DNA from: an uncultured Planctomycetales bacterium
GTDB lineage: Bacteria; Planctomycetota; Planctomycetia; Isosphaerales; Isosphaeraceae
Reading direction: 5' to 3'
Length of the DNA: 64,000 bases
NCBI GenBank assembly: GCA_903926465.1
Contig: CAIYJE010000023.1
Location: forward strand, 1 to 64,000
The position numbers were made by a program, and so were the translations under genes. Positions within the stretch are counted from its first letter, which is position 1. Every line of letters begins with the position of its first letter. Below the pieces are notes generated by a model, which saw only the letters and a list, made by a program, of their open reading frames with translations, did not search any database and was not told where the DNA came from. Shown here one piece after another: positions 50,212 through 62,077 of this stretch.

Positions 50212-50482
50212 AGATCCAGAACCTTTGTCACTGGTCACTTCAACCCCCCTCACATAGCCGCCCCAAATTGCAACAAGATCGTAACCGAGAATGAGGCTGA
50301 GGTCAGCGGCTCGCCCGGCCCGATTCCAGGCAATGGCCACCAAACCGGGGATGCTCAAGGCGGTTGAATCCCATCACGCGGGGGATGTCGCCGGCGACGA
50401 TCAACCGGTAGCATAGTTACAAGGCCGTCTCCTGACGCGGCTTTACCTGCGCCCTTGCTTTGTTTTTCTGTGTGGTGAAGGC

Positions 50483-52984
50483 ATGTTCAACCGCCCGTGG
50501 TCTGACCCACTTTCGCCCCTGCCATGGCAACCCGCCCGCCACGCCCTCGGCCTGTCCCTGGCGTTTCTGCTCAGCACGCAGTTCTCTACCGGCCAGGACT
50601 CGCCACCCGCCACCCAGCCCGCCAGTGAAGCCGCACCCGCCATACCAGCCCAAGGCCACTCGATTCACGGCGAAGCCTTCGACGAAGGACCCAGACAGGC
50701 GGCCAAGCTTCTGAACGGCATGGGCAAAATCGATTTCCCTGTCTCCTCGGCCTCCACGCCAGCCATCGCGTTTGTGCAACAAGGGGTGGCCCAGCTTCAT
50801 ACCTTCTACTACCTGGAAGCCGAGCGCTCGTTCCGGCAGGCGGCCACCCTCGATCCCCAGTGCCCCCTGGCCTTCTGGGGAATGGCCATGGCTAACGTCA
50901 ACAACGGCAAGCGGGCCAAGGCCTTCTTGAAAGAGGCAGAGACCCAGGCCAAGGCCCACCCGCCCACCAGGCGAGAATCGCTTTACCTGGAATCGCTGTC
51001 TGCCCTCTACTCCAGCGATGGAGACGACAAATCCAGGCGCAGAAAACAACTGGAAACCCTGGAAACGCTGGTTCAGGAGTTCCCCACCGATGTCGATGCC
51101 CGGTGCTGGCTCGCCCTCTTGACCTGGCAAAATGCCGACAAAGACGGCATTGGTAGCCGCCAAGCCGTTGAGGAACTGATTCGATCGGCCGAACGAATTT
51201 CCCCCATGCATCCGGCCGTTCACCATTACCGCATCCACCTCTGGGATGGCGTAAAACCGGCCCTCGCTGAAAACTCAGCGCGGCTGTACGCCCCCGCAGC
51301 CCCCGGCATCGCCCATGCCTGGCACATGCCCGGCCACACCTACACCGGACTCAAACGCTACGCCGATGCCGCCTTCCAGCAAGAAGGCTCCGCCCGTGTG
51401 GATCATGCCGCCATGAGCCGCGCCCAGCTTATGCCGTTCGAAATTCATAATTACGCTCATAACAACCAGTGGCTGGCCACCAGCCTGAGCAATATCGGGC
51501 GGGTCCGTGAAGCCGTTCAGATGGCCCGCAACCTGGTCGAGCAGCCGCGTGACCCTCAGAAAAACACCGCCACCGACGGCGGTTCCGCCCAGTCGAACGG
51601 GCGGGCCCGCTGGTCCGAAGCACTCACCAGACATGAACTCTGGGACGAGTTGATGACTGCCACCACCAGCGGCGCAATCGATTGGTCGGACCTACCCAGA
51701 GAACGCAAGGAAAAAGCATACAGCCTGGGGCTGGCCCACGCGGCCAAGGCAGATAAAGCCCAACTTCAGGCCCAGATTGACGCGTTGAAAGCGCTTGAAC
51801 CTCCCAAGCCGCCCGCGGAAACTAAGCCCGATCCAGCCACACCCGCCACCGGCGAAACTCCGCCCGCAAACCCAGCCCCCAAAGAAGGTGCCGCTCCCTC
51901 CCCGAGCGCTCCCGAGGCCGATAAAAAGACTGCCGAAACCGACCAGAAAACTCCCGAGTCTGATAGAAAGCCTGCGGAACCGGACAAGAAGCCAGCCGAA
52001 ACCGACAAGAACGCTCCAGAAGGGGACAAGAAGCCAGCCGAGCCCCCCAAACCCGAGGCACCTGCCGGGTTACCAGAGGCTCTGGCCGAACTGGAAGGGT
52101 ATCGACTGCTGATCGACGGCCAGAATGAAGAAGCGCTGGAGAGCTTTGAAAAGGCGGGCTCGATGCGTCAGGAATCCAAAGCACGTGTTCAGTTGCGTGC
52201 CGGTAAGCCCGATCTGGCCGTAGAGACGGCCCGCAAAGCGGTTGAGCAGAATGAAAATCTGGTTGCCCCACTGGCCGCGCTGGTGGAAATTCTGGATGCC
52301 GTGGGCAAAAAAGAGGATGCTCAAGCCGCCTACCAGAAGCTCGCTCCATTTCTGGCCGAAGCCGATCAGAATTTGCCCGCACTGGTACGGGTTCAAGCCC
52401 TGGCCGCGCGCTGGAATCCGCCGGTCAGCCAGAACCAGCCGGCCGCAATTCCACGCGAACCGCGCCCTGAGCTGGGGTATCTTGGCCCTCTGCACTGGAC
52501 CCCAAACAACGCACCGGCCCTGGACCTGCCCGACACGGAAGGAACCACCTGGCGACTTTCTGAACACCGCGGGCGCAACGTGCTGGTTCTGTTTTTCCTG
52601 GGCGGGGGCTGCGCCCACTGCATGCAACAACTCCAGGAATTCAGTAAAGTTGCAACCGATTTCGAGAGCCTGGATACCGACATCGTTGCCGTGAGCACCG
52701 ATGACCCCACGGCCAGCCATGCCCTGAAGCACAACAAAGATGGTATTTCATTCCCCATGCCAATTTTGGCAAACCCGAAGCTTGAATGGTTCAAGCAGTT
52801 CGGCAGTCATGACGATTTTGAATCACGACCGCTACACGGAACCTACTTGATTGACCGGATGGGCAAAGTTCGGTTCCAGAGAATCTCCGCCGAACCGTTT
52901 CTGGACCTCTCGTTCTTGAAACAAGAGATTGCCAGAATCAACCACCTGCTCAAGAGCGAACCAACGACCTCTGCCTCAAACTAA
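50483..52984 (+). CDS. exported TPR protein with C-terminal thioredoxin/redoxin domain
   Basis: 833 residues, exported: signal-like LALGLSLAFLLSTQFS near the N-terminus. A TPR-type helical part (about 85-410) is followed by a charged repeat linker (about 480-520, six 7-residue units of D-x-K-x-x-E-x), another helical TPR-like region (about 530-650), and an AhpC/TSA-like redoxin domain (about 670-820) with the redox pair CAHC in FLGGGCAHC. Thiol-disulfide work in the periplasm or a peroxiredoxin-like role is likely. GAAGG precedes the ATG. Confidence 0.82.
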   Translation: MFNRPWSDPLSPLPWQPARHALGLSLAFLLSTQFSTGQDSPPATQPASEAAPAIPAQGHSIHGEAFDEGPRQAAKLLNGMGKIDFPVSSASTPAIAFVQQGVAQLHTFYYLEAERSFRQAATLDPQCPLAFWGMAMANVNNGKRAKAFLKEAETQAKAHPPTRRESLYLESLSALYSSDGDDKSRRRKQLETLETLVQEFPTDVDARCWLALLTWQNADKDGIGSRQAVEELIRSAERISPMHPAVHHYRIHLWDGVKPALAENSARLYAPAAPGIAHAWHMPGHTYTGLKRYADAAFQQEGSARVDHAAMSRAQLMPFEIHNYAHNNQWLATSLSNIGRVREAVQMARNLVEQPRDPQKNTATDGGSAQSNGRARWSEALTRHELWDELMTATTSGAIDWSDLPRERKEKAYSLGLAHAAKADKAQLQAQIDALKALEPPKPPAETKPDPATPATGETPPANPAPKEGAAPSPSAPEADKKTAETDQKTPESDRKPAEPDKKPAETDKNAPEGDKKPAEPPKPEAPAGLPEALAELEGYRLLIDGQNEEALESFEKAGSMRQESKARVQLRAGKPDLAVETARKAVEQNENLVAPLAALVEILDAVGKKEDAQAAYQKLAPFLAEADQNLPALVRVQALAARWNPPVSQNQPAAIPREPRPELGYLGPLHWTPNNAPALDLPDTEGTTWRLSEHRGRNVLVLFFLGGGCAHCMQQLQEFSKVATDFESLDTDIVAVSTDDPTASHALKHNKDGISFPMPILANPKLEWFKQFGSHDDFESRPLHGTYLIDRMGKVRFQRISAEPFLDLSFLKQEIARINHLLKSEPTTSASN
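51920..52045 (+). repeat. six tandem 21-bp units in a linker
   Basis: Six 21-base units encode 7-residue repeats of the form D-(K/Q/R)-(K/N)-x-(A/P)-E-x inside the TPR-redoxin gene. The third-base differences between units show that it is not a recent expansion. Confidence 0.75.
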
Positions 52985-54811: not shown

Positions 54812-55006
54812 TTAAGGCTGAGGGGTCCGTGTCATGGAGTAAAAAGCTCTCTGATTCACGGCTTGATCGATTTTATCCAGCAATCCCAGCTCGATGAATT
54901 GATCGCGGATCGCCATTCGCATCTCACCGGGAAGCAATCTCCCGCGGCGATCCTGAGCAGGCGTTGCGTCTGAAGAATCAGACGCGATTTCGGGGGTCTG
55001 AACCAC
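54812..55006 (-). CDS. small protein, unknown, doubtful
   Basis: 64 residues, GTG start at 55006 with AGAAGG upstream. The second half is helical and protein-like (LLPGEMRMAIRDQFIELGLLDKIDQAVNQ). It lies antisense in the nusA leader region, where other genomes often have rimP, but it is not RimP-like. It could be a chance frame. No family is recognised. Confidence 0.35.
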   Translation of the reverse strand: MVQTPEIASDSSDATPAQDRRGRLLPGEMRMAIRDQFIELGLLDKIDQAVNQRAFYSMTRTPQP

Positions 55007-55091
55007 GCCTTCTCAGGCGGACGGTTCGTGTTCACCCCTCAAAAAGCCGGTGCTTTTTCTCTCCCGATGCTTTCCACTCCAGGGTTTTCTG

Positions 55092-56573
55092 ATGAGCGTT
55101 GACCTCGTCCGGATTGTTGACAGCATCCATCGCGAAAAGAATATCTCCAAGGAACTTCTCTTTGAGGGGATCCAGGCAGCGCTCGCGATGGCGGCCAAGA
55201 AGCATTATCCAGATGCGAACGAGATCGAGGTCAAGATCGACCGCGAGACCGGCAAAGTTTACACCCTTGCCGATGGCAGCCCGGTTGAACCTCCCGACTT
55301 TGGACGAATTGCGGCCCAAACGGCCAAACAAGTCATTATCCAAAAAATTCGTGAGGCTGAGAGAGACAGCCTGTTCGACGAATTCGTAGGACTTCAGTCA
55401 GACCTGATCACGGGCACGGTTCAAAGGTTTGAGGGGGGTGCCGTCACCGTCAACCTGGGCAAGACCGATGCTCTCCTACCCCGCCCTGAACAAATTCCCG
55501 GTGATGACCTTCACCCTGGCGAACGTGTTCGGGCCGTCATCAAAGAAGTGAGCAAGCGTGGCCAGAGGGTCAAGATTATCCTCAGCCGCACGCACCCAGA
55601 CTTTGTGCGCCGCTTGTTCGAACTCGAAATTCCTGAGATTGCCGATAACGTGATCTCGATTCGGGCCCTGGCTCGTGAAGCCGGTTACCGCTCCAAGGTT
55701 GCCGTAAGCTCGGCAGATACCAAGGTTGACGCCGTAGGTGCCTGCGTCGGGGTTCGCGGAACCCGCATCAAGAATATTGTAGACGAACTGGGCGGTGAAC
55801 GCATTGACATCGTTCGCTGGAACGAGTCACTGCAGGTGCTGATTCCCAATTCCCTGCAACCGGCAGAAATTGAAGAGGTGATGCTTTGCCACCTCCTGGG
55901 CCGGGCCATTGTTCTGGTACGCGAGGATCAGCTTTCACTGGCCATCGGCCGCCGCGGTCAAAACGTTCGGCTGGCCTCCAAACTGGTTGGCTGGGACATT
56001 GAAATCATGACCGGGGATGAGCTTGATAAGCTCATTGACAAGGCTGTAAGAATTCTGTGTACCATCCATGGACTGGAAGCAGAGCTCGCGGAACGGATGG
56101 TCGAACAAGGGATCTTGAGCTACGACGATCTCTCGATCATGGACGCCAATGACCTTTCGAACACCATTGAGGGACTCTCGCTAGACACTGCACAAGAGTT
56201 CATTGACCGTGCAGAAGAATTAGCGGAAGAAGAACAGGAAGAATCTCCCCGGCGTAAAGGGGGACGGCTGGCCGCCAGTGAAAACCTGGACGGGCCAGGG
56301 TCAGCCTCGAGCGAACTCACCCAGGAGCCGTTGGACGGCGAGTCCAGCGAAGAGCCGGGCGAAGATGGTGAGTTTAGCCCGGATGAAGAATCAACCACGG
56401 ACCAGGACCCCGTTCATGACCTTGCTCTTGCAGAAGAGGGTCTTGAAACCGAGGACCACGAGATTTCCAGGGCTCCAAGCGAAATTGACCAGGATGAAAC
56501 CGAACGGTTGATGCTTGAGGCCATTGAAGGGATTTCCGACGAGGAATCTGAATCCAGTGAACAGCCAAAGTAA
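55092..56573 (+). CDS. nusA: transcription termination/antitermination factor NusA
   Basis: RNA-polymerase-bound elongation and termination factor, 493 residues. An N-terminal domain (1-130), an S1 domain (about 132-195), then KH domains with GVRGTRIKNIVDELGGERIDIV and IGRRGQNVRLASKLVGWDIEI. A helix-hairpin-helix-like segment (about 325-375) and a strongly acidic tail (about 385-493) end it. The start at 55092 matches MSVDLVRIVDSI, the family start; the longest frame adds 14 residues. It is the first gene of a nusA-infB-ylxP-rbfA operon. A rimP gene, usually upstream, is missing. Confidence 0.96.
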   Translation: MSVDLVRIVDSIHREKNISKELLFEGIQAALAMAAKKHYPDANEIEVKIDRETGKVYTLADGSPVEPPDFGRIAAQTAKQVIIQKIREAERDSLFDEFVGLQSDLITGTVQRFEGGAVTVNLGKTDALLPRPEQIPGDDLHPGERVRAVIKEVSKRGQRVKIILSRTHPDFVRRLFELEIPEIADNVISIRALAREAGYRSKVAVSSADTKVDAVGACVGVRGTRIKNIVDELGGERIDIVRWNESLQVLIPNSLQPAEIEEVMLCHLLGRAIVLVREDQLSLAIGRRGQNVRLASKLVGWDIEIMTGDELDKLIDKAVRILCTIHGLEAELAERMVEQGILSYDDLSIMDANDLSNTIEGLSLDTAQEFIDRAEELAEEEQEESPRRKGGRLAASENLDGPGSASSELTQEPLDGESSEEPGEDGEFSPDEESTTDQDPVHDLALAEEGLETEDHEISRAPSEIDQDETERLMLEAIEGISDEESESSEQPK

Positions 56574-56728: not shown

Positions 56729-59700
56729 TTGTCCACGCGTGTCCATGAGTTGGCGAAAAAGCTCGGACTGAAAAGCCAGGAGTTGATCGATGCGATCCAG
56801 GAGGCCGGTCTGGATGTCAGACCCAGCCCCTTGGCCGGTCTCGATTCCGATATGGTCGAGAAGATCGAACGCCTTTACACCTCCCGGCCGTCCAGCGCCG
56901 CTGCGCCGTCGCCAACCCTTCGCCCCTCGCACACGCCTGATCGTGTCGAACCAGCGATCAAGTCGGAATCTCCGAAACCCGAACGCCCCATTCCTGATCA
57001 TCCAAAGGTTTCCGCACCCCGCATGAGCTCTGGTACCGAGCCCTCAACCATTCCGGGGGAACCGGTCGTCGCCGTGCCTCCCGTCGAGACATCAGCCCAG
57101 CCCACCACCCAGGCTGATTCGATTGAAGCTACACCTGCTGCGACCCCGGGCCCCAACCGGCTGACCTGTCGTCCTACGCCTGCTGCTCCCCTCATTGGTC
57201 AGCAGCCGCCCCGAGCCGCGGGAGGTGGACCACTCGCCTCACACACAAGACCTGCGAACGCGGCCCCGGCCGCTCGTGGATCTGGCCCGCTCTCGGCCCA
57301 CACTCAGCGGGTCCCTACCGGACCAAGTTCGGCCCAACGGCCGAACAGAGCTGATGCCCCTCCGTCAGCCGGCAATGTGGCCCAGGGTCCACTCCGACGA
57401 AGCGATTACATTTCGCCCACCGGAACCGGTCCTGCCGCCAATGCAACGCGGCAAACTCCGCCACCATCGGCCCCACGGCGGCCCATGGAACCGGGTGGTC
57501 GTCCTCCGGAAGGGCCTGGCCCAGCACGGATCAACCGACCTCTGCCTCCGGTTGCCAACCTGCCAACAGGTCCTACTGGCGGAATTCGCCGGCCTAGTAC
57601 CGCGCCACGGCCCACCGGCCCTGAAGAGCGTACGCAGCGGCCAGACGTCAAGTACACGCCCGCCCAACTGCTAGAGATGGCCAAGGCGGGACGGCTTCCT
57701 GGATCCACTCCCCAGGCTCCACCCACCGGCCCTCGACCGACCGGTCCAGCGGCTGGCTCTGGTGGTCGCCCCATGGGGCCCGCTTCTCAGCGTACAGGTA
57801 CGCTGGGTGGTCCAATTCCAACCGGTCCTGCGGCTGGCGTACCAGCGCCGATGATCGATGAAGAAGAGGATCGTGGACGTGGTCATCACGGCCGTGGTGC
57901 CGGCGGTGCCAATGCCGGCCGCGAACAGCGTCGTGCCGATCGCTCCAAGAAAGCGACCGATCGCAAGTCGATCGGTTCTCCGCTTCCCGCTTCGGCACTA
58001 CTGGACGAAGATGATTCTCCCGGCCTGCGTCGGTCTCAGCGGTCGGGCAACAAGCTCAAACGCCATATCATTGCTCCACGGAAATCCGAAGCGTTCGTAG
58101 AACCGCCGGTAACCGTGCGTGCCCTCTCTGAAGGAATTGGCATCAAGGCCACTGACCTGGTCAAGAAGTTGTTCCTGCAGGGCAACCTTGGAGTGAATAT
58201 CAACTCCACGCTCGATGACGACGTGGCGATGGAACTCGCTCTCGAATTCGGGATCTCGCTAACCATCGTCCATGAGCGAACTGCCGAGGACGAACTGCTC
58301 GAATCTTTCGAGCCGCGTGATGAAGACGAATCGGCGATGTCGCTTCGTCCGCCGGTTATTACCGTGCTGGGTCACGTTGACCATGGTAAAACCTCGTTGC
58401 TCGACCGCATCCGCAAGGCCAATGTGGTGGCGAGCGAGAGTGGTGGTATTACCCAACACATCGGCGCTTACCAGATTCAGCACCAAGGCCGTCCTATCAC
58501 CTTCGTGGATACGCCTGGTCACGAGGCGTTCACCTCGATGCGTGCTCGCGGTGCGAACGTCACCGACATTGTTGTGCTGGTGGTGGCCGCGGATGACGGC
58601 GTGATGCCTCAGACGATTGAAGCCATTGCCCACGCCAAGGCTGCTGACGTGCCGGTTGTTGTCGCGCTGAACAAGATCGACCTGCCGAACGCCGATAGCC
58701 TGTCCAACATCAACAAGATTTATGGTGAGCTGGCCCAGCAGGGCCTTAACCCCGCGGAGTGGGGTGGCGACACCGAAGTCATCCGTACTTCAACGTTGAC
58801 CGGGCAAGGGTTTGAGGAGCTACTCACCACCCTTGAGACCTTGTCGGAGTTGCTGGAACTCAAGACCAACGCGGATCGACCTGCGACGGGTACCTGTCTT
58901 GAAGCCCTCATTTCTGAAGGGCGCGGCGTGGTTGCTACCGTGCTGGTTCAAGACGGTACGCTGCGGGTTGGTGACGTAATGGTGTGCGGAGACGGCTACG
59001 GCCGCGTTCGGGCCCTGCTCAATGATCAGGGACAGAGCGTGACCGAGGCTGGTCCTTCGACACCGGTTGAGGTTTCCGGTCTGGATTCCGTGCCAACCGC
59101 CGGCGAGAAGTTCGCGGTTGTCGAAGAGATTTCCCAGGCTCGTGAAATTGCCGAAACCCGGCGTGATCGTGGTCGAGGTGCAGCGCTCACCGAACGTCAG
59201 CCTTTGACGCTTGAGAACGTTTACACCCGGATGTCTGAGCAGAAGGTCAAGACCCTCAACCTGATTCTTAAAGCCGACGTGCAGGGTTCCATTGAAGCCC
59301 TCACCAAGGAACTTGAGAAACTGCGCAACGATGAAGTTCCCATTCGCATCCTGCTCAAGGCTGTGGGTGGAATCACCGAAAGCGATGTCACCCTGGCTGA
59401 AGCGTCTGACGCCATCATCATTGGTTTCCGGGTTGCCCCAGACGACCGAGCGATGACCCAGGCTGAAGAGAAAAAGATCGACCTTCGTCGATACGACATC
59501 ATCTATCAGGTCACAGATGAGATCAAGAAGGCCGTTGAAGGGATGCTGGTTCCGGACGTGAAAGACGTCCACCTGGGCCGAGCAACGGTTCGGCAGGTCT
59601 TCAAGATTACCCGCATCGGTACGGTGGCTGGTTGCTACGTCACCCAGGGAACCATCGAGCGGGGTGCCAAGGCACGGATCATCCGCGAGGGTCGCGAGAT

Positions 59701-59860
59701 CTACAAGGGTACCGTCGAGGCTCTCAAACGCTTCAAAGACGATGTCAAAGAAGTGCGAGAGAACTACGACTGCGGTATCAAGATCTCCAACTACGATGAT
59801 ATCAAGCCAGACGATACCATTGAGGCGTTCCGAACGGAGATCATTCGTCGTACCCTCTGA
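56729..59860 (+). CDS. infB: translation initiation factor IF-2
   Basis: GTPase that brings initiator tRNA to the 30S subunit, 1043 residues, long for the family. The start is TTG at 56729, preceded by AGGAGGAG with 6 bases spacing. An N-terminal IF2N domain (1-52) is followed by a very long low-complexity P/G/T/A/R region (about 55-440) with PTGP repeats. A second IF2N-like domain (about 450-515) comes next, then the G domain with GHVDHGKT (P-loop, about 547), DTPGHEAF and NKIDLP, and domains II-IV. The linker is unusual in length and proline content. Confidence 0.97.
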   Translation: MSTRVHELAKKLGLKSQELIDAIQEAGLDVRPSPLAGLDSDMVEKIERLYTSRPSSAAAPSPTLRPSHTPDRVEPAIKSESPKPERPIPDHPKVSAPRMSSGTEPSTIPGEPVVAVPPVETSAQPTTQADSIEATPAATPGPNRLTCRPTPAAPLIGQQPPRAAGGGPLASHTRPANAAPAARGSGPLSAHTQRVPTGPSSAQRPNRADAPPSAGNVAQGPLRRSDYISPTGTGPAANATRQTPPPSAPRRPMEPGGRPPEGPGPARINRPLPPVANLPTGPTGGIRRPSTAPRPTGPEERTQRPDVKYTPAQLLEMAKAGRLPGSTPQAPPTGPRPTGPAAGSGGRPMGPASQRTGTLGGPIPTGPAAGVPAPMIDEEEDRGRGHHGRGAGGANAGREQRRADRSKKATDRKSIGSPLPASALLDEDDSPGLRRSQRSGNKLKRHIIAPRKSEAFVEPPVTVRALSEGIGIKATDLVKKLFLQGNLGVNINSTLDDDVAMELALEFGISLTIVHERTAEDELLESFEPRDEDESAMSLRPPVITVLGHVDHGKTSLLDRIRKANVVASESGGITQHIGAYQIQHQGRPITFVDTPGHEAFTSMRARGANVTDIVVLVVAADDGVMPQTIEAIAHAKAADVPVVVALNKIDLPNADSLSNINKIYGELAQQGLNPAEWGGDTEVIRTSTLTGQGFEELLTTLETLSELLELKTNADRPATGTCLEALISEGRGVVATVLVQDGTLRVGDVMVCGDGYGRVRALLNDQGQSVTEAGPSTPVEVSGLDSVPTAGEKFAVVEEISQAREIAETRRDRGRGAALTERQPLTLENVYTRMSEQKVKTLNLILKADVQGSIEALTKELEKLRNDEVPIRILLKAVGGITESDVTLAEASDAIIIGFRVAPDDRAMTQAEEKKIDLRRYDIIYQVTDEIKKAVEGMLVPDVKDVHLGRATVRQVFKITRIGTVAGCYVTQGTIERGAKARIIREGREIYKGTVEALKRFKDDVKEVRENYDCGIKISNYDDIKPDDTIEAFRTEIIRRTL

Positions 59861-59884
59861 CCGAAAAATCTCATGCTTAGATCG

Positions 59885-59919
59885 CCATGCGAGCCGAGTC
59901 TATGACTCGGCTCGCATGG
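59885..59919. terminator. 16-bp perfect palindrome after infB
   Basis: Arms CCATGCGAGCCGAGTC / GACTCGGCTCGCATGG, loop TAT, about 24 bases past the infB stop codon. No T-tract follows closely (TTGAATCG), so it may be a processing or partial termination site between infB and ylxP. Confidence 0.6.
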
Positions 59920-59967
59920 TTGAATCGATTCTGCTCTTTTCGCCCTGGACAACAGGCTTGCCAGTTC

Positions 59968-60246
59968 ATGCACGTGAAAAGTGTTGTTGTCTGGCTGAGA
60001 CTGACACACTGCTCGACTCAGCGTGACAAAGACCAGCGAGTGGAGCGGATCATGAAAAAACTCCGTCTCCATTTCAACGTGAGCACGGCCAACCTGGGAC
60101 CAGACCAGCAAGTCGATCTTGTGGCCCTGGGTGTCAGTTCGATTGCTCGCGATCGGCGAGAAAACCAGGAGGTTCTGGATCGGGTGGTCGATGCGGTCAG
60201 CGTGCACCCAGACGCCCAACTTGTGGGTGAGCCCGAGTGGCCCTGA
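59968..60246 (+). CDS. ylxP: DUF503 family protein, YlxP
   Basis: Small protein of 92 residues of the DUF503 family. It starts MHVKSVVVWLRL at 59968, with the family block RDKDQRVERIMKKLRLHFNVS and a typical DLVALGVSSIARDR. The start is not the longest one (59887), since family similarity begins at 59968. It lies between infB and rbfA, the usual place of ylxP. The function is poorly known; a link to ribosome assembly is suspected. Confidence 0.85.
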   Translation: MHVKSVVVWLRLTHCSTQRDKDQRVERIMKKLRLHFNVSTANLGPDQQVDLVALGVSSIARDRRENQEVLDRVVDAVSVHPDAQLVGEPEWP

Positions 60247-60300
60247 ACACAGACCCGACACCGTTTCCAGAATATTATTGGTTTCCTGAGAGAGAATTCT

Positions 60301-60705
60301 ATGGCCTCGCATCGACCGGAAAGAGTATCTGAAGCCATTCGTGAGGTGGTCGCCACCGCGATCTTGACGGAGATCTCTGACCCGCGGGTACAGGGGGTTA
60401 CGGTGACCCGTGTTGCCATTACCTCTGACCTGAGACAAGCCACGATCTTTGTCTCACTCATGGGTACCGAAACAGAGCAGAAGCAGGCGTTCCGAGGGCT
60501 CAACTCTGCGACCGGATTTCTGCAATCCCGGGTTGCGGCTCGACTTCAGATTCGCTACACACCCACTGTCAAGTTTGAGATTGACGAAGGTGTTAAGAAG
60601 TCGATTGCCATGACCAAACTGGTTGAAGAAGCCCTCGCCGCAGACCGCGCAGCTCATCCTGAAGACAGTTCCATCGTGAAGGCCGAGTCCGACACTGAGG
60701 ACTGA
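60301..60705 (+). CDS. rbfA: 30S ribosome-binding factor
   Basis: Ribosome maturation factor needed for 16S rRNA 5'-end processing, 134 residues. It starts MASHRPERVSEAIREVVA with the KH-like fold, then the family elements ITEISDPR-like (ILTEISDPRVQGVTVTRV) and SRVAARLQIRYTPTVKFEIDEG. GAGAGA precedes its ATG by a few bases. It is the fourth gene of the nusA operon. truB and rpsO, which commonly follow, are not here. Confidence 0.95.
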   Translation: MASHRPERVSEAIREVVATAILTEISDPRVQGVTVTRVAITSDLRQATIFVSLMGTETEQKQAFRGLNSATGFLQSRVAARLQIRYTPTVKFEIDEGVKKSIAMTKLVEEALAADRAAHPEDSSIVKAESDTED

Positions 60706-60778: not shown

Positions 60779-62077
60779 ATGGCCCCCTCGAGCAAGACCC
60801 AGCAAATCAGCCAGATTTCCGGTCTCCTGAAACAGCGGTCCAAGGCCGAACCCGCCGAGAATCGGCTCAGTATTCTTGAGGCAGTCGTGCTGGGAATTTG
60901 CCGGGAGGGCAGTACGGCCGATCAGGCAAATCAGGTTCTTTCCCGAATCAAAGACCATTTCTTCGACTGGAATGAAGTTCGCGTCAGCACGATCAAAGAG
61001 ATCGTAGGAGTTTTGGTAGGACTTCCAAACGCCGAACATCGCGCAAACACCATTCGCACCTTCCTTCGCCAGCTTTTCACCAAGACCTACGGCTTTAATC
61101 TAGACGCCCTTACCAAGAAGCCGCTCAAAGAGTCTCTGAAAACGCTCCAGGAATACGACGCCCTCCAGTCCGATTACGTTCTGGCCACCGTTGTCCAGCG
61201 CGCCCTGGGCGGCCATGCTATTCCAATCGCCGATTCCTCGCGCCGTGCGCTCGTGCGACTGGGAGCTACCGAGACCGATGTCGAGACATCCGCTCTCCGC
61301 TCCACTCTGGAACGCATCATCGCCAAAGCCCAAGGATGTCAGTTCCAAGAGGCGATCGAGCAGCTTTGCCAGGACACTTGCACCGAACGCAACCCAGATT
61401 GCCCCCACTGCATTCTACGCGAGATTTGTCCGACCGGTCTTGGAGAGACCGCCGTTGAAAAGCCCACCAGCAAGAAGCCCAAAAAAGGCAAATCGCTCGC
61501 TCAGATCAACTTGAAATTGGCAGCCCAGATCCAAACTCCCATCCTTGAGAAGTCCGGCAAAAAGCCCAAAGGCAAGTCCGGTTCCGCCGCCCCGGTCGAG
61601 ACGCCCCAGAGCGTCAAAGCCGCTGAGCCGGTTATTGATGCCAAGTCCCCCAAAGTTGCCGCCGAATCCAGCCCGGCGGCGGCCCCAGGTTCACCAGCAA
61701 CCAAGAAACCGACCAAACACAAGGTCGAGACGCCCGTTGAAGCCACGCCAGTCTCAGGCACACCTGAGCCTGAAAAAGTCGCCCACGGCACGGAAAAGGT
61801 TGAAAAGAAAGCCAAGGCCGCACCCAAGTCAAACGCTGCTGATAAGCCAGAACCCGTGAGCAAACGAGCTTCGAGTGCCAAGCCCGCAACCGAGGTTCAG
61901 GAACCAACGCCACCCCCGGCTTCCAAACCAGTAGCCAAGCCCCAGCCGAAGAAGGCTGAAACCAAGGCCGAATCTAAGCCTACTGCGTCCAAGGCCAAGG
62001 CGAAGCCTGTCGACGAAGCGGAATTGAATGGTGCCGACGTCAAACCCAAGAAGTCTTCGAAGAAGAAATCGGATTGA
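60779..62077 (+). CDS. endonuclease III-like protein with degenerate HhH and basic tail
   Basis: 432 residues. The N-terminal about 220 residues follow the EndoIII/HhH-GPD fold and keep the four iron-sulfur cysteines with normal spacing (C201-x6-C208-x2-C211-x5-C217). The hairpin region (123-137, LQEYDALQSDYVLA) lacks the GxG of LPGVGRKTA, and the catalytic Lys seems absent; D152 aligns with the catalytic Asp. The rest (about 222-432) is a Lys/Ala/Pro-rich, histone-H1-like disordered tail with many KPK/KAK stretches. It may bind DNA rather than cut it. It follows rbfA by 73 bases and is probably in the operon. Confidence 0.8.
   Translation: MAPSSKTQQISQISGLLKQRSKAEPAENRLSILEAVVLGICREGSTADQANQVLSRIKDHFFDWNEVRVSTIKEIVGVLVGLPNAEHRANTIRTFLRQLFTKTYGFNLDALTKKPLKESLKTLQEYDALQSDYVLATVVQRALGGHAIPIADSSRRALVRLGATETDVETSALRSTLERIIAKAQGCQFQEAIEQLCQDTCTERNPDCPHCILREICPTGLGETAVEKPTSKKPKKGKSLAQINLKLAAQIQTPILEKSGKKPKGKSGSAAPVETPQSVKAAEPVIDAKSPKVAAESSPAAAPGSPATKKPTKHKVETPVEATPVSGTPEPEKVAHGTEKVEKKAKAAPKSNAADKPEPVSKRASSAKPATEVQEPTPPPASKPVAKPQPKKAETKAESKPTASKAKAKPVDEAELNGADVKPKKSSKKKSD

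Follow-up and report, generated by a model that had tools for sequence, protein, structure and literature searches.

We analysed a 64,000-nucleotide stretch of DNA (hereafter the window) from an uncultured Planctomycetales bacterium, in which a gene for a protein resembling endonuclease III (EndoIII) lies behind nusA, infB and rbfA, in that order, and ahead of a gene for a TPR protein (Table 1). The encoded protein can be divided into two structural elements, an EndoIII-like domain and a Lys/Ala/Pro-rich tail. Close orthologues begin with MATQSKAQ-type sequences that line up with its own N-terminus (MAPSSKTQQ), supporting the assigned start codon. Promoter-like sites near the gene (one found, mean of 0.5 in shuffled sequences) and terminator-like sites (two found, mean of 3.4 in shuffled sequences) occur at chance level. 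A 440-base gap separates infB from rbfA (59861-60300), and the open frames within it were taken as spurious.

Table 1. Positions of the EndoIII-like gene, its sequence elements and the genes upstream of it in the window.
Feature	Coordinates	Strand	Basis
nusA (coordinates are those of the open frame)	55002..56570	+	Pfam NusA_N and KH_5
infB (translation initiation factor IF-2), upstream	56729..59860	+	NCBIfam TIGR00487, 756.7 bits, over cut-off
rbfA (ribosome-binding factor A), directly upstream	60301..60705	+	Pfam RBFA, E=1.1e-29
Complete gene (EndoIII-like domain and basic tail)	60779..62077	+	ATG start, 432 aa, stop included
EndoIII-like (HhH-GPD superfamily) domain, aa 1-224	60779..61450	+	44-orthologue profile against PDB 8a5f
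Family signature DWNEVRVS, aa 63-70	60965..60988	+	near-invariance in 98 members
HhH-matching segment without GxG; Tyr133 (61175-61177) at the catalytic-Lys position	61148..61189	+	MAFFT and profile alignments
Ala151 in place of the catalytic Asp, followed by Asp152	61229..61234	+	alignment
Fe-S cysteine motif C201-x6-C208-x2-C211-x5-C217	61379..61429	+	EndoIII spacing, alignment
Lys/Ala/Pro-rich tail, 208 aa, residues 225-432	61451..62074	+	composition; no Pfam match

A profile of 44 orthologues matched the PDB EndoIII chain 8a5f at E=3e-16 over profile positions 3-219 of 224, and also matched ROS1 (E=6e-8). Profile homology across the whole domain places the protein in the HhH-GPD superfamily. 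We take the PDB chains 4unf, 8a5c and 8a5f to be Deinococcus radiodurans EndoIII-1 (the 4unf entry is itself titled 'Endonuclease III-1'). When the window protein was searched alone, 8a5f was again the best PDB match (E=5.5e-5), no Pfam family scored over its cut-off, and the NCBIfam matches fell far below theirs [NF053634, E=3.8e-8; mutY (TIGR01084), E=3.8e-6; PRK10880, E=0.026]. The Pfam HhH-GPD model recognised only 9 of the 44 members at E<=0.01, the window protein not among them. A structure predicted from two sequences, the window protein and its nearest relative (L005, 76% identical), was too poor to use (pLDDT 41.9, pTM 0.33) and was dropped as evidence.

Four further genes in the genome exceed the Pfam cut-off for HhH-GPD: an Nth (L001; TIGR01083, 245.5 bits) and a MutY (L002; TIGR01084, 307.9 bits), both of which also pass their NCBIfam thresholds, and a weaker pair resembling AlkA. 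With these genes present, the repair roles look filled. We aligned 98 family members with 11 outgroups using MAFFT; the outgroups were the genome's own Nth and MutY and nine EndoIII-like proteins from another phylum (L140-L148), which are the top-scoring EndoIII-like matches in a control phylum.

The hairpin segment of the window protein, 'YDALQSDYVLAT', lacks GxG, and Tyr133 occupies the catalytic-Lys position; both hairpin Gly are present in 11/11 outgroups and the Lys in 9/11. An independent profile alignment to 8a5f again placed an aromatic residue at the catalytic-Lys position. The catalytic Asp of bifunctional EndoIII is replaced by Ala151, with some doubt left by the adjacent Asp152, and L005 has Asp at the position aligned with Ala151. 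Gly39 aligns in two alignments with a Glu of the genome's own MutY that is presumably the catalytic Glu of that enzyme, so that both the Glu and the Asp of MutY are missing (Gly39, Ala151). The [4Fe-4S] cysteine motif is intact, and cluster binding is putative. These residues bear out what the initial annotation had read from the window, namely iron-sulfur cysteines at their normal spacing in a protein whose hairpin has given up GxG and the catalytic Lys. A Lys and an Asp in their proper places would have spoken against that annotation; the alignment places neither there, with a reservation for Asp152, and the displaced Asp is one catalytic change more than had been seen.

The window protein shares with EndoIII-1 and NF053634 the fold over the whole domain and the Fe-S spacing, but EndoIII-1 has GVGVKTA and PVDTH, while the Lys, the GxG and the aligned Asp are all missing from the window protein, which has a basic tail in addition. 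Fold and Fe-S cysteine spacing are likewise common to the genome's own Nth, in which GVGRKTA and VDTH stand against ALQSDYVLA and IADS in the window protein. The genome's own MutY also has Tyr at the Lys position; unlike MutY, the window protein has Gly39 for Glu and no aligned Asp, and its tail contains no recognisable second domain. This pattern of residues suggests that the window protein is non-catalytic and has lost lyase chemistry. An ordinary Nth or MutY was rejected as its identity on the residue losses in the alignment and the presence of a separate Nth and MutY in the genome.

A protein search gave a match in 59/59 genomes searched, 37 from the bacterium's own taxonomic family (its own genome included) and 22 more from its class. 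The 44-sequence profile matched 300/392 genomes of the phylum at E<=1e-10, and a wider 54-sequence profile matched 364/392 at that threshold. The E<=1e-10 matches (364/392) were rejected as evidence because EndoIII-like genes of another phylum reach 5.6e-20: 87 of the 97 control-phylum genomes match at 1e-5, the best at 5.6e-20 apart from the genome in which L005 is filed, and these matches mostly cover the C-terminal half only, as expected of ordinary EndoIII genes. At a strict cut-off of 1e-21, chosen after the control-phylum result, the wider profile matched 289/392 genomes. All 40 own, same-family and same-class genomes listed were among them (E<=7.2e-54), and no same-class genome was among the 20 listed of the 103 non-matching genomes.

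The 98 aligned members comprise the loci of the 59 genomes, L005, and 38 loci picked among the high-scoring matches listed for the 44-sequence profile; five of these 38 (L120-L124) are again class members, so that 33 lie outside the class, and the picked loci are not a random sample. In the maximum-likelihood tree the members separate from the 11 outgroups with support 100/99, and a less well supported branch (95/74) sets the class apart on one side. With the Fe-S region removed, the split between family and outgroups has support 99. The members are one family with largely vertical inheritance. Being one supported family found in 59/59 class genomes and in 289/392 phylum genomes at the strict cut-off, it is not the oddity of one genome. 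A separate scan of genome contigs with the single window protein, using strict patterns that reach close relatives only, returned one relative, L005 (CAINWE010000224.1). The L005 contig is filed under an Oligoflexia MAG; its orthologue is sister to the window protein (100/100), and the contig also encodes a homologue of the TPR protein downstream in the window. It is probably a mis-binned planctomycete contig. A scan of viral contigs gave 14 pattern matches, of which none was confirmed as a relative.

Across the 98 members, the catalytic-Lys position holds Phe in 47, Tyr in 35 and His in 5, the rest being scattered; Lys occurs in 0/98 by the state labels on the tree, where the Lys state changes solely with the outgroups, and is absent from the top residues listed. 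The first hairpin Gly is retained in 31/98 and the second in 3/98, both together only in L102 and L104. All four Fe-S Cys are present in 54/98 and none in 44/98. The Asp position is Asp in 83/98, Asn in 5 and Thr in 4, with one each of Ser, Ala (the window protein), His, Pro, Gly and Gln. With the outgroups included, the tree requires at least five changes of the Fe-S state and at least ten of the Asp state. Loss of the Fe-S Cys is repeated, and has occurred also within the window's own taxonomic family (L036-L038, L045). The residue patterns support family-wide loss of lyase chemistry, and glycosylase chemistry has probably been lost as well. Against reading the protein as a dead enzyme stand the Asp in 83/98 members and the Phe or Tyr that 82/98 have in place of the Lys, the Tyr occurring also in the genome's own MutY.

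The family signature is conserved to a different degree, with R68 in 98, N65 in 97, V69 in 96 and D63 in 94 of the 98 members. When the positions of the window protein are ranked by entropy, R68, N65, L96, V69, D63, A50, P149 and E66 come first and the Asp column fifteenth. Arg in the R68 column and Asn in the N65 column are absent from the top four outgroup residues listed, which cover 10 and 7 of the 11 outgroups. Because this motif is kept and the catalytic columns vary, the strongest constraint has moved from the catalytic hairpin to the D-x-N-E-x-R-V segment, which, going by EndoIII topology, presumably sits at the end of the helical barrel opposite the DNA face. Purifying selection acts on the domain in close pairs: dN/dS was 0.026/0.73 for L030-L031 and 0.014/0.35 for L022-L023, and 0.058/0.17 for the weakest of nine pairs (L037-L038). 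An isolated degenerate copy or pseudogene was rejected on these low values and on the presence of the gene in every class genome searched.

The tail, estimated at about 200 residues in the initial annotation, matches that description in length and composition (K43 A34 P30 S21 E18 D5 R1), with a net charge of about +21 over 208 aa. Lys and Arg are partitioned unequally in the window protein (11 Lys and 16 Arg in the domain, 43 Lys and 1 Arg in the tail) and in the summed members, where Lys:Arg is 1661:376 in tails against 1437:1517 in domains. The densest 60-residue stretch of K+A+P among the 47 non-overlapping ORFs of at least 150 aa in the window falls in the tail (37/60); this density alone is not unique, because the runner-up ORF reaches 36/60. 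That ORF (50417-52981, + strand) is K/P/E-rich and contains an imperfectly repeated linker (DKKPAEPDKKPAETDK-like). Tail length and sequence vary greatly across members (where the Fe-S region is missing, the start of the tail is placed only approximately). In seven of nine close pairs tail dN is at least 2.4 times domain dN; in L052-L058 it is 1.6 times, and L055-L062 shows no excess. Net charge is nonetheless positive in 96/98 tails and at least +5 in 88/98. We describe the tail as a region selected for its charge and probably disordered, rather than as a histone.

The gene neighbourhood is translational. In the class, rbfA lies directly upstream on the same strand in 59/59 loci, with 56-303 bases between the end of its frame and the aligned start, and infB lies upstream in 58/59 (in L051 it is elsewhere). 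By contrast, only 13/59 class loci, the window included, yielded a homologue of the TPR gene that lies downstream, the flanks extending only about 1.5 kb in 30 loci. For the 38 picked loci, an automatic neighbour rule gave rbfA in 25 and infB in 27; rbfA rises to 27/38 with L104 and L108, where the domain match runs a few bases into the rbfA frame. Outside the class, rbfA is next door in 22/33 loci, these having been picked among the high-scoring matches listed. The 11 outside-class loci without rbfA have yebC nearby in five (L102, L103, L107, L127 and L135), rpsP directly upstream in two (L113 and L126) and hisG next door in two (L100 and L101, with yebC behind hisG in L100), and no recognised neighbour in L099 and L119. 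In the outside-class loci examined (L100, L102, L105, L113 and L126), hisG and/or yebC often come next after the gene, with yebC-ruvC in one case. We confirmed RbfA, NusA, YebC, HisG, ribosomal protein S16 and RuvC on representatives with Pfam and IF-2 with NCBIfam.

According to the available part of its report (PMC12234827), YebC binds RNA, makes contact with 23S rRNA and promotes the translation of proline-rich stretches. Rhodopirellula baltica rbfA (RB5503) is listed as up-regulated under cold shock in the accessible portion of PMC2754498, which makes no mention of six locus tags looked up next to RB5503. The terms endonuclease, infB and rbfA are absent from the accessible main text of the PVC signature paper (PMC3444138), and the family is not described in the open-access literature searched, as far as those texts were available.

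We infer an origin by duplication, absence of enzyme activity, binding to nucleic acid, and a target in RNA or the ribosome. An EndoIII-type protein would have become a non-catalytic nucleic-acid binder early in Planctomycetota. The folded domain would have given up the hairpin Gly and the catalytic Lys and tolerated loss of the Asp and the Fe-S Cys, and a new site, D-x-N-[ED]-x-R-V-[ST], would now be under constraint in it. The Lys-rich, probably disordered tail may provide sequence-independent affinity for nucleic acid. That a dead EndoIII domain with such a tail acts as a general nucleic-acid binder is plausible. The target would most likely be rRNA or the assembling or initiating small subunit, together with RbfA and IF-2, because the gene lies behind infB-rbfA or beside yebC or rpsP. 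We favour a role with RNA or the ribosome because gene order is the only functional pointer and is unusually consistent.

A non-catalytic nucleic-acid binder with the EndoIII fold, tied to ribosome maturation or translation, is accordingly our leading interpretation, held as credible though not quite probable. A more specific version, in which a repair fold became a ribosome-maturation or translation factor near the root of the phylum and acts with RbfA and IF-2 through D-x-N-E-x-R-V as a new functional centre, we regard as possible but doubtful. Gene order is indirect evidence, and hisG, which has no role in translation, occurs in the same block; both points count against a translational role and keep it tentative. 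No RNA-binding domain is recognisable in the window protein. The basic-tail step has exceptions of its own: L119 and L137, two outside-class members, have tails of negative net charge and thus no basic tail, eight further members reach only +3 or +4, mostly with short tails, and the tail in the window is only moderately basic.

The target could instead be DNA. A dead EndoIII domain might dock on DNA while the tail neutralises phosphates as linker histone H1 does, condensing the nucleoid. EndoIII ancestry supplies a DNA-binding fold, and most members have Lys-rich, Arg-poor tails whose composition, also rich in Ala and Pro, resembles that of linker histone H1 and chlamydial HC2-type tails, most strongly in L052, L056 and L059, where charge density is 0.3-0.4 per residue. 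Composition of this type is found in some Fe-S-less members, the L056 tail being 41% Lys with a net charge of +29 in 70 aa. The window tail, by contrast, carries only about 0.1 charge per residue. A real H1 domain was rejected, as the window tail and five orthologue tails matched no Pfam family at E<=0.1; the 'histone-H1-like' label of the initial annotation is apt for composition and fails as a family assignment. An HC2 search of the genome gave one match, below cut-off (E=0.0045) and away from this gene, in a short frame of 110 aa (L149, G000:C32:10090-10305).

The hairpin Gly of HhH proteins hold a DNA phosphate, and their loss in nearly all members argues against docking of the domain on DNA. 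The translational neighbourhood argues against a nucleoid function too, and occurrence in 289/392 phylum genomes means that no single group such as Gemmata has the protein to itself. The tie to condensed nucleoids made in the initial annotation is circumstantial: tomography of Gemmata, in the part of the report available, describes DNA filaments with unidentified beads, and no histone homologue was found (PMC3440768). We consider a chromatin-like function unlikely, though a serious competitor to a ribosomal one.

Enzymatic activity could also have been retained, in a monofunctional DNA glycosylase whose active site is unusual and whose tail tethers the enzyme to DNA. The commonly kept Asp and the aromatic residue at the Lys position, shared as Tyr with the genome's own MutY, are consistent with such an enzyme, as is NF053634 ('monofunctional DNA glycosylase', the DR2438 model), which matches 39/44 members far below cut-off (window protein 33.2 bits as a whole and 35.5 bits for the domain, against a curated cut-off of 400). 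Sis-HhH-GPD, a crenarchaeal (Saccharolobus) alkylation-repair glycosylase, is like the window protein an HhH-GPD protein without the canonical Asp, and according to the accessible part of its report is active with Ser in that place, using an essential Glu134 (PMC11754123). Glu134 lies 18 residues before Ser152, which by numbering would put it at the Lys position, Tyr in the window protein. The window protein, however, combines Ala151 at the Asp position with Gly39 at the MutY-Glu position, and Glu is not among the eight commonest residues of the MutY-Glu column in the 98 members. Where the Asp is replaced, it is mainly by Asn, Thr or Ser (10/15), which would suit a helix N-cap at least as well as a catalytic acid. 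The lost hairpin Gly and the repeated changes of the Fe-S state also weigh against catalysis, and we judge a glycosylase distinctly unlikely. Both functions that the initial annotation had offered, a DNA-binding scaffold or chromatin protein and a monofunctional glycosylase, survive; neither is favoured. The infB-rbfA, yebC and rpsP neighbourhood points away from chromatin and repair, to ribosome maturation or translation.

An accessory protein whose domain serves as a scaffold for a protein partner such as RbfA, IF-2 or NusA, with DxNExRV as the contact, would accommodate a most conserved segment outside the old active-site segments and the adjacent genes of candidate partners, but that segment could be a buried structural element, and we consider this improbable.

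The family is a widespread planctomycete protein, poorly recognised by any Pfam model, in which kin of a repair enzyme stands inside a conserved block of translation genes, in a phylum known for unusual cell biology. Its near-invariant motif makes the question of function directly testable. If the protein acts on ribosomes, a repair-enzyme fold would have moved into ribosome biogenesis or translation; if DNA is the target, it would be a candidate nucleoid-condensing protein of planctomycetes.
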